The notes beneath the pieces were generated by a model. That model was not told where the DNA came from and made no database searches. It worked only from the letters and a program-made list of their open reading frames with translations. From the NCBI RefSeq assembly GCF_011089885.1, contig NZ_JAANBD010000029.1, positions 1-64,000 on the forward strand: a stretch of DNA of 64,000 bases, written 5' to 3'. Every line of letters begins with the position of its first letter. Positions within the stretch are counted from its first letter, which is position 1. Source of the DNA: Thioalkalivibrio sp. XN279 (GTDB lineage Bacteria; Pseudomonadota; Gammaproteobacteria; Steroidobacterales; XN24). Below are positions 35,349-37,867 of this stretch, piece by piece. The translations under genes were made by a program, and so were the position numbers.

Positions 35349-35825
35349 TTAGGCGCGCAGCCGGGCCCGCAGCGCGCGCGTGGCGCGCAGGCCGAGCTGG
35401 GCCGGCAGCGGCAGCTGCTCCTCGTCGAGGCCGTCGAGGAAGTTCTTCACCCCGAGACCGAGCTCGGTGTCGCCCTCGATCACCAGCCGGCGCTGGAAAA
35501 ACAGCGTGTCCGGGTCTTCCAGGCCGGCCGCCATGAGGAAGAAATCCCATGACTGCCCGCGGATGGTGACGTCGGCGGGATGCGCCCGAGCGAGAACCTG
35601 GAGCCTCCTGTCGGCCAGCGCGACCGGCCAGCGCCATCCCGCGTCCGCCAGCTCCACCGCCAGGCACCGGCCCTCGAGGAAATCCAGCGCGCCTTCCGCC
35701 ACGCTGGCGCGGAACAGCTGTTCTAGGGCGAGCTCGAGGGGCCGCTGCTGCACGGGATGCGGCACCAGCCGCAGGGGCCTGGCCAGCAACGGCACGACGG
35801 TTTCGGGTCTCGGCAAGGGCAGCAT
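35349..35825 (-). CDS. ubiT: Ubiquinone biosynthesis accessory factor UbiT (SCP2-like)
   Basis: SCP2-fold lipid-binding protein of 158 aa. In E. coli UbiT (YhbT) is needed for oxygen-independent ubiquinone synthesis, probably by binding quinone intermediates. The sequence has the SCP2 pattern: ALEQLFRASVAEGALDFLEG, then DVTIRGQSWDFFLMAAGLED and DTLFFQRRLVIEGDTELGL, which is characteristic of UbiT. ATG 35825 is chosen; the open frame reaches 35876, but the added residues overlap the regulatory dyad. It is divergent from ubiUV with an FNR-type site between them, fitting joint anaerobic induction. Confidence 0.92.
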   Translation of the reverse strand: MLPLPRPETVVPLLARPLRLVPHPVQQRPLELALEQLFRASVAEGALDFLEGRCLAVELADAGWRWPVALADRRLQVLARAHPADVTIRGQSWDFFLMAAGLEDPDTLFFQRRLVIEGDTELGLGVKNFLDGLDEEQLPLPAQLGLRATRALRARLRA

Positions 35826-35875
35826 GAAGTCCTCCGCGCAGCCGCCCCAACATACCCCATCCCGGCGCCGCGGCA

Positions 35876-35889
35876 TTGACCTCCGTCAA
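35876..35889. promoter_or_regulatory. FNR/Anr-type dyad between ubiT and ubiUV
   Basis: TTGAC-CTCC-GTCAA is a perfect inverted repeat with the FNR/Anr spacing of 4 nt and one change per half-site from TTGAT-N4-ATCAA. A -10-like TATCCT lies at 35912-35917, exactly where a class II site centred at -41.5 would place it for ubiUV. On the other strand TATGTT (35849-35854) sits within one base of the same geometry for ubiT. One site could thus activate both directions under low oxygen. Confidence 0.75.
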
Positions 35890-35948
35890 AACGCCCGGCC
35901 TTTGCGGTGGCTATCCTGAGCGCCCTCGACCAGAACCCGGGGACCACC

Positions 35949-36944
35949 GTGGAACTGCTCTGTCCTGCCGGCAACCTGCCCTCGCTGCGCGCCGCCGTCG
36001 ATGCGGGCGCCGACTCCGTGTACCTCGGCTTTCGCGACGCCACCAACGCGCGGCACTTCGCGGGCCTGAACTTCACCGACAAGGACATCGTGCGCGGCAT
36101 CCGCTACGCCCACGACCATGGCTGCAAGGTGCTGATCGCCCTCAACACCTATCCCCAGCCCGACGGCTGGCCGCAATGGACGCGGGCAGTGGATCGCGCC
36201 GCCGAGCTCGGCGCCGACGCCCTGATCCTGGCCGACACCGGCTTGCTGGCCTACGCCGCCGAGCGCTGGCCCGACCTGGAGCGGCACCTGTCCGTGCAGG
36301 CCTCCGCCACCAGCCCCGAGGCGTTGAAGCTGTATCACCGGCTGTTCGGCATCAGCCGCGCGGTGCTGCCGCGCGTGCTCTCGGTGCGCCAGGTGACCCA
36401 GGTCGCCGCCCAATCCCCGGTGCCCGTCGAAGCCTTCGGCTTCGGCAGCCTGTGCGTCATGGTCGAGGGACGCTGCCTGCTGTCGAGCTACCTCACCGGC
36501 CGCTCGCCGAATACCTACGGCGCCTGCTCGCCCGGCTCACACGTGCGCTGGGAGGAGACGCCGCAGGGCCTCGAGTCGCGCCTGAACGGGGTGCTGATCG
36601 ACCGCTACGGCCCCGGCGAGAAGGCGGCCTACCCGACGCTGTGCAAGGGCCGCTTCTGCGTCGACGGCCACACCTACTACGCGCTGGAGGAGCCGAGCAG
36701 CCTGAACTCCATCGAGTTGCTGCCGGAGCTGTACCGCGCCGGCGTCGCGGCCATCAAGGTCGAGGGCCGCCAGCGCAGCCCGGCTTACGTGGCGCAGGTG
36801 ACAGCCGTGATGCGCGCCGCCATCGACGCCTGTGTCGCCGACCCCGACAACTTCCGCGCCACGCCTGCCTGGCAGGAAGCCCTCGCCGCCGTCTCCGAGG
36901 GCACGCAGACCACGCTCGGCGCCTACCACAGGTCATGGCAATGA
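35949..36944 (+). CDS. ubiU: Oxygen-independent ubiquinone hydroxylation factor UbiU (U32 family)
   Basis: Peptidase-U32-family 4Fe-4S protein that with UbiV hydroxylates ubiquinone precursors without O2. The 331 residues equal E. coli UbiU. The sequence begins (M)ELLCPAGNLPSL and keeps the U32 signature region EAFGFGSLCVMVEGRC with cluster cysteines. The later cysteines in YGACSPG and TLCKGRFCVDG are also present. I take GTG 35949, which reproduces the E. coli N-terminus and lies 3' of the predicted transcription start near 35924; an upstream GTG at 35907 would precede that start. The last bases overlap the ubiV start (ATGA). Confidence 0.95.
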   Translation: MELLCPAGNLPSLRAAVDAGADSVYLGFRDATNARHFAGLNFTDKDIVRGIRYAHDHGCKVLIALNTYPQPDGWPQWTRAVDRAAELGADALILADTGLLAYAAERWPDLERHLSVQASATSPEALKLYHRLFGISRAVLPRVLSVRQVTQVAAQSPVPVEAFGFGSLCVMVEGRCLLSSYLTGRSPNTYGACSPGSHVRWEETPQGLESRLNGVLIDRYGPGEKAAYPTLCKGRFCVDGHTYYALEEPSSLNSIELLPELYRAGVAAIKVEGRQRSPAYVAQVTAVMRAAIDACVADPDNFRATPAWQEALAAVSEGTQTTLGAYHRSWQ

Positions 36945-37867
36945 AACTCGCCCTCGGCCCGGTACAGTATTTCTGGCCCCGCCAGCGCATGTGGGCCTTT
37001 TACGCCGCCGCCGCCAACTGGCCGGTGGACGTCGTCTATCTCGGCGAGGTGGTCTGTCCCAAGCGCCGCGAACTGCGGCTCGAGGACTGGCTCGAGATTG
37101 CGGCCTGGCTGGAGGAATCCGGCAAGGAAGTCGTGCTTTCCAGCCTGGCCCTGCTCGAGGCCGGGTCCGAGCTCGGCGTGCTGCGACGCCTGTGCCGCAA
37201 CGGCCGCTTCATGGTCGAGGCCAACGACATGGCGGCCGTGAGCATCCTGGCCGAGGAATGCGTGCCCTTCGTCGGCGGCCCGACGCTGAACATCTACAAC
37301 GCCCGCACGCTCCAGGTGCTGGCGGCACAGGGCATGCGCCGCTGGGTCCTGCCCTTCGAGCTGTCCGGCGCCACCGCGGCGGGCCTGGTCGCCGCGGCGC
37401 CGGCGGACTGCCCCTGCGAGGTGCTGGGCTGGGGACGGATCCCGCTGGCGTGGTCGGCGCGCTGCTACACCGCGCGGGCCGAGGATCGCCCCAAGGACCA
37501 TTGCGACCTGGCCTGCCTCGAGGACCCGGACGGCCGGCTCATGAGCACGCGCGAGGGCGAACCCTTCCTTGCGCTCAACGGCATCCAGACACAGTCGGCC
37601 CTGACCCAGGACCTGGCCCCGCTGCTCGGCGAGATACGCGCGGCCGGCGTGCAAGTGCTGCGGCTCAGCCCGCAAGCACAGCACATGGACCAGGTCGTCG
37701 AGCATTTCGCGGCCCTGCTCGCCGGCGATCCCGATCCCGCCCGGCTGGAAGCGCTCGCCGCGCTCGCGCCCACCGGTACCTGCGACGGCTACTGGCGCGG
37801 CCTGCCAGGCTTTACCGGCGCCCGCCACGCGGGCACGGTGCCCACGCCCGCCCCCGCGCCGGCCTGA
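36941..37867 (+). CDS. ubiV: Oxygen-independent ubiquinone hydroxylation factor UbiV (U32 family)
   Basis: Partner of UbiU in a heterodimer that carries one 4Fe-4S cluster per subunit. 308 aa; E. coli UbiV is about 292. It opens MKLALGPVQYFWPRQRM. Expected cluster ligands are visible: the Cys in EVVCPKRRE, and three in ARCYTARAEDRPKDHCDLAC. LNGIQTQSAL and CDGYWRGLPG are also typical of UbiV. ATG 36941 overlaps the ubiU stop by 4 nt, so the subunits are coupled. The product ends 7 nt before the stop of the convergent phosphoribosyltransferase gene. Confidence 0.94.
   Translation: MKLALGPVQYFWPRQRMWAFYAAAANWPVDVVYLGEVVCPKRRELRLEDWLEIAAWLEESGKEVVLSSLALLEAGSELGVLRRLCRNGRFMVEANDMAAVSILAEECVPFVGGPTLNIYNARTLQVLAAQGMRRWVLPFELSGATAAGLVAAAPADCPCEVLGWGRIPLAWSARCYTARAEDRPKDHCDLACLEDPDGRLMSTREGEPFLALNGIQTQSALTQDLAPLLGEIRAAGVQVLRLSPQAQHMDQVVEHFAALLAGDPDPARLEALAALAPTGTCDGYWRGLPGFTGARHAGTVPTPAPAPA

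Follow-up and report, generated by a model that had tools for sequence, protein, structure and literature searches.

The window, by which we mean the whole stretch of 64,000 nucleotides analysed, carries ubiT on one strand and, diverging from it, ubiU and ubiV on the other. These identities had been proposed in an earlier note made from the letters of the stretch, and they are correct, all three products scoring above the NCBIfam equivalog cut-offs. The genes and the elements in the gap between them are as follows:

35349..35825, minus strand: ubiT, SCP2-domain factor of oxygen-independent ubiquinone synthesis (NF047962, 140 bits against a cut-off of 46.9)
35849..35854, minus strand: -10-like TATGTT for ubiT, 21 nt from the dyad; predicted +1 at 35842, with the dyad at -40.5
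35876..35889, no strand assigned: FNR/Anr-type dyad TTGAC-CTCC-GTCAA (TTGACCTCCGTCAA), an exact match, centre 35882.5; presumed operator of both promoters
35912..35917, plus strand: -10-like TATCCT for ubiUV, 22 nt from the dyad; predicted +1 at 35924, with the dyad at -41.5
35949..36944, plus strand: ubiU (NF047963, 551 bits against a cut-off of 440), start codon GTG
36938..37867, plus strand: ubiV (NF047965, 377 bits against a cut-off of 275), overlapping the end of ubiU

The gap between ubiT and ubiU (35826-35948) measures 123 bp and is 69% GC. In L019 and L022-L026, the six divergent relatives that look nearest, an ATG aligns with the ubiU start, and the ubiT start aligns with an identical ATG-CTG-CC in L022, L025 and L026. 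Since the starts of both genes match those of relatives, the bounds of the gap are right, as the note had them. Longer open frames, beginning at ATG 35876 for ubiT and at GTG 35907 for ubiU, are disfavoured, because in each case it is the shorter start that matches the relatives. GGAGG precedes the ubiT ATG, within the predicted ubiT leader. ubiU was found neither in the two congeners nor in four other members of the family, all of which were searched; the nearest UbiU found (79%) is that of L143, from another order, with at most 67% reached in the window's own order. The presence of ubiTUV (35349-37867) in this genome may reflect either transfer or repeated loss.

The palindrome lies between the divergent genes with exactly the sequence and coordinates first given for it, and both of its half-sites read TTGAC, which makes it a TTGAT-N4-ATCAA-like dyad of the kind seen at FNR-activated class II promoters. 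It is the single site of at least 8/10 in the 450 nt upstream of ubiU. Between the dyad and each start codon there is one hexamer with at least 4/6 agreement with TATAAT, TATCCT towards ubiU and TATGTT towards ubiT, each reaching just 4/6. Measured from the predicted starts, TATCCT does sit at the exact class II offset claimed for it, and TATGTT lies, as had been claimed, within one base of that offset. The predicted leaders are 25 nt (ubiU) and 17 nt (ubiT) long, and the predicted +1 positions are 82 bp apart. The gap holds one presumed operator with -10 candidates on both sides at an activating offset. No second ubiT promoter is visible in the gap, the ubiT flank being without any other hexamer of at least 4/6. 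A plain sigma70 -35 role for TTGAC was considered and rejected, because neither half of the dyad has a -10 of 3/6 or better at a distance of 15-19 nt. Among E. coli FNR-activated promoters with a known start, the site lies at -41.5 ± 4 in 19 of 23, and -40.5 and -41.5 each occur several times, according to the parts of that source consulted (PMC3688515). Consequently, the tested offset was not fitted to the locus in the window, and -40.5 on the ubiT side is a normal FNR position.

The layout was then compared across 140 UbiU-encoding loci, some of which represent one genome taken twice; the divergent arrangement, with ubiT upstream on the opposite strand, was scored in 14 of them. Nine of these 14, namely the window (L009), L019, L022-L026, L047 and L143, have a TTGAY-type dyad that scores 8.5/10 or more within 260 nt. 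When these nine loci, the window among them, are aligned on the dyad, agreement with TATAAT at 21 nt averages 4.11 on the ubiU side and 4.56 on the ubiT side, compared with 0.67-3.0 at the other offsets tested. The offset between dyad and -10-like hexamers, which fits -41.5/-40.5 in the window, is thus similar in the relatives, all starts being predicted ones. L019 and L022-L026 carry TAGAAT (TAAAAT in L025) towards ubiU and TATACT towards ubiT, both of which place the dyad at -40.5. The TATGTT of the window has the same offset as their TATACT, whereas on the ubiU side the window's hexamer lies at 22 nt and those of the six relatives at 21 nt. L143, the locus from another order with the closest UbiU, has a perfect dyad (TTGATATTTATCAA) 66 nt from ubiU, the same distance as in the window, and hexamers of 4/6 at -41.5 in AT-rich flanks. 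The hexamers of L047 and L143 are no better than those of shuffled flanks (0.13-0.28). A class-wide DNA pattern modelled on the double promoter of the relatives matched 12 of 369 genomes.

The five divergent loci without a TTGAY-type dyad of at least 8.5/10 are L104, L105, L156, L072 and L161. L104 and L105 have TTGCG-N4-CGCAA at -62 upstream of ubiU, and L156 has TTGCG-CTGG-CTCAA at -73; no dyad was found at L072, and L161 has its ubiT at a distance of about 1 kb. By eye, a CGCTAGCG-like stretch recurs near the dyad when L104, L105 and L156 are compared. Outside the divergent layout, dyads scoring 8.5 or more within 260 nt were counted by the position of ubiT: where it lies downstream, they occur at 16 of 46 loci when it is on the opposite strand and at 14 of 28 when it is on the same strand; where it lies upstream on the same strand, at neither of two; and where ubiT was not found in the DNA examined, at four of 50. 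Of the 138 usable UbiU rows, 77 were placed in a maximum-likelihood tree (midpoint-rooted for drawing), in which one clade (support 95/88) unites the window with L143, L156, L104, L105, L019 and L022-L026, while L047, L072 and L161 fall outside it. Every one of the 11 loci in this clade is divergent and carries a TTG-N8-CAA dyad at the corresponding place; eight of these dyads are of the TTGAY type, and the other three contain a TTGCG half. The clade spans several orders, the window's own (L104, L105) as well as others (L143, L156). In combination, the layout counts and the clade indicate that the dyad is the rule in the window's clade and not at every ubiU locus.

The proposal of FNR control called for an fnr or anr homologue in the genome, and two FNR-like proteins with C-x2-C-x5-C (L001 and L002) are encoded there. 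Compared with the solved A. fischeri FNR, L002 gives a match at 2.6e-53; it carries ETISR in addition to the cysteine motif, and its 217.3 bits with the NCBIfam Fnr model fall slightly below the cut-off of 228. The motif TTGAY-N4-RTCAA is enriched over its reversed control, with six places versus none in the window's own genome; across six genomes of the family the counts are 64 versus 10. A hexamer with 4/6 or better stands 21-22 nt from three of the six own-genome dyads: that in the ubi gap, which has one on both sides, one beside L002 and an OmpW-like gene, and one at a candidate small RNA. The remaining three have no -10 at 21-22 nt, and one of them lies inside a reading frame. The two further sites with a hexamer are:

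L101:1501-1514 (contig C27:265006): dyad TTGATCCAGGTCAA, between the L002 fnr gene, which it directly precedes, and the OmpW-like gene, with TAGAAT 21 nt away toward ompW
L098:1501-1691 (contig C6, ~158025-158215, outside the window): candidate FNR-driven small RNA, with dyad TTGACCCGGGTCAA and TATAAA at 22 nt (dyad at -41.5)

The OmpW-like gene scores 184.5 bits with the OmpW model, below the cut-off of 287, and the gene after it belongs to the COX1 family (ccoN by sequence). At the candidate small RNA, TATAAA is followed by about 140 nt without a gene start, and a hairpin and a T run were seen by eye at the end, where a terminator scan listed none. The folding z-score is -3.69. The element recurs in both congeners (84% and 81%), with the dyad, TATAAAT and an unpaired CACTCTCCTCTTGGTTT kept, and was found in none of 16 other relatives searched; in Rfam it gave three weak matches, all below the gathering scores.

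The central claim of the note, that one FNR-type site is placed for both directions, is supported by the geometry, by the genomic FNR with its other sites and by conservation in the relatives. Judging from these sequences, a single FNR dimer probably serves as class II activator toward both ubiUV and ubiT. An FNR/Anr-type oxygen-sensing dimer, presumably of L002, would occupy the dyad when oxygen falls and, from the middle of the gap, would recruit RNA polymerase either way, standing at -41.5 relative to the predicted ubiUV start and at -40.5 relative to that of ubiT. The site would in this manner drive both units, and the three genes of oxygen-independent ubiquinone synthesis would come on together. 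As the predicted starts are so close to each other and both polymerases would need the same dimer, these would be likely to compete or to fire alternately. El-Robh and Busby reportedly described, in 2002, one CRP site serving divergent promoters. For E. coli, 11 pairs of divergent promoters with one CRP site between them are given in the consulted parts of a further source (PMC3105977). The CRP layout resembles that proposed for the window in placing a single dimer, from the same superfamily of proteins, between divergent promoters, and differs in that CRP exerts carbon control whereas the window has FNR-type half-sites and presumed oxygen control.

The E. coli ubi genes offer the closer comparison. 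Fnr control of ubiUV in that organism, which the note had mentioned, is borne out by the parts of the E. coli study consulted, with two separate, independently acting sites: Fnr acts on ubiUV via F1 and on ubiT via F2, and mutating one leaves the other unit unaffected (PMC10470549). According to the same parts, the E. coli region shares with the window the divergent genes and, as predicted for the window, the regulator type and activation without oxygen; it differs in having two degenerate Fnr sites, whereas the window has one near-symmetric dyad for both units, and in an extra aerobic ubiT promoter, ubiTp1, which has no visible counterpart in the window's gap (PMC10470549). This provision of an own Fnr site for each unit, with an additional aerobic promoter for ubiT, would be in keeping with a dyad that drives one side only in the window, most likely ubiUV from -41.5, the opposite hexamer being coincidental and ubiT being read elsewhere or weakly; the 4/6 scores of the window's hexamers point the same way. 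However, the ubiT-side TATGTT shares its offset with the TATACT of six relatives, the ubiT side has the higher mean TATAAT match of the two sides over the nine divergent loci, and its flank offers no other -10 of at least 4/6. We consider one-sided activation unlikely.

The dyad could also have a different reader within the CRP/FNR family of this genome. Dnr-type proteins read sites similar to those of FNR, and the genome contains ten CRP/FNR-type helix-turn-helix matches, so that a Dnr-type NO sensor or L001 might bind the dyad, in which case nitrogen oxides would be the signal as much as low oxygen. About 2.9 kb separate the gene for L001, an FNR-like protein with C-x2-C-x5-C and ETVSR, from a COX1-family gene whose frame of 822 aa may, judged by its length, encode a quinol-type NO reductase. 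Conversely, L002 is closer to FNR than the more distant L001 (2.6e-53 versus 2.9e-31), a dyad of the same type lies directly upstream of the gene for L002 itself, and the cysteines of L001 also look oxygen-sensing, which makes control by such a protein quite unlikely.

The motif TTGAC-N4-GTCAA with at most one mismatch occurs once in the 64 kb versus 0.61 occurrences expected, and at least once in 44 of 100 shuffles; the window-wide count is therefore not significant by itself. TTGAY-N4-RTCAA arose in the gap alone in 20 of 200,000 dinucleotide shuffles. When the dyad was kept constant, a hexamer of 4/6 or better at 21-22 nt appeared on the right in 0.73% and on the left in 0.92% of 100,000 shuffles, and on both sides in 0.011%. 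A palindrome present by chance and devoid of any regulatory role, which the expectation per window would allow, is highly improbable given the conservation of the dyad at the corresponding place throughout the UbiU clade and the rarity of the two-sided class II geometry among the shuffles.

In the UbiU tree the window forms a five-member subclade (support 100/96) with G542, G595, G153 and G235, and in each of these four ubiV is followed by an FNR-like gene (L247, L248, L249 and L250). A further gene, encoding a protein of ~508 aa, separates ubiV from the FNR-like gene in G542 and G153; its product in G542 is a UbiD-family decarboxylase (TIGR00148, 480.9 bits, cut-off 244.85), which the G153 protein resembles by eye. 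The window has no FNR-like gene beside ubiV, and four FNR queries gave no match anywhere in its 64 kb, nor in the examined stretches of L019, L022-L026, L047 and L072. In G153 and G235 the recognition helix of the linked sensor shows TIGTVSR in place of the ETISR of FNR, and the ubi dyads of these two genomes read TTGCG-N4-CGCAA at the same place. It is possible, though doubtful, that ubiT, dyad and ubiUV constitute a portable cassette that has its own oxygen sensor in part of the clade, that sensor and site drift together into a private code, and that the window has lost the linked sensor and relies on a global FNR. This idea is weakened by G595, whose sensor keeps ETVSR though one half of its dyad is TTGCG, and by the full switch being seen in just two loci. 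It is weakened further because the linked sensors are not a supported clade and no clear enrichment of TTGCG dyads is seen: among 11 FNR-like proteins placed in a tree, the four ubi-linked ones do not form a clade, the fork being weak (74/83) and including a second G595 protein, and TTGCG-N4-CGCAA totals 55 versus 50 for the reversed control over eight genomes (9 versus 11 in G153, 8 versus 5 in G235 and 6 versus 2 in the window's genome). The linked sensor of G153 has matches at 1e-10 in 34 of 107 genomes of its family; apart from G153 itself, its one close relative is the G235 protein (54%), the rest reaching at most 33%. Loci that combine a linked FNR-like gene with a changed dyad provide a natural test of how sensor and DNA code change together.

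A survey of Pseudomonadota predicted an FNR site between divergent ubiT and ubiUV at 96% of such loci, and the parts of it consulted do not specify one site or two per pair, or describe -10s on both sides (PMC11707229). A shared dyad with class II -10 candidates on both sides was not found for ubiTUV in the literature searched, as far as the consulted parts of those sources extend. The predicted FNR control of ubiTUV in the window fits the published pattern, and what is added is a refinement, namely one shared dyad with -10 candidates on both sides, kept in the clade. Such a layout of one site and two promoters would couple all three ubi genes, unlike the separate sites of E. coli, and, if the one-site model is true, a single mutation would silence both sides.
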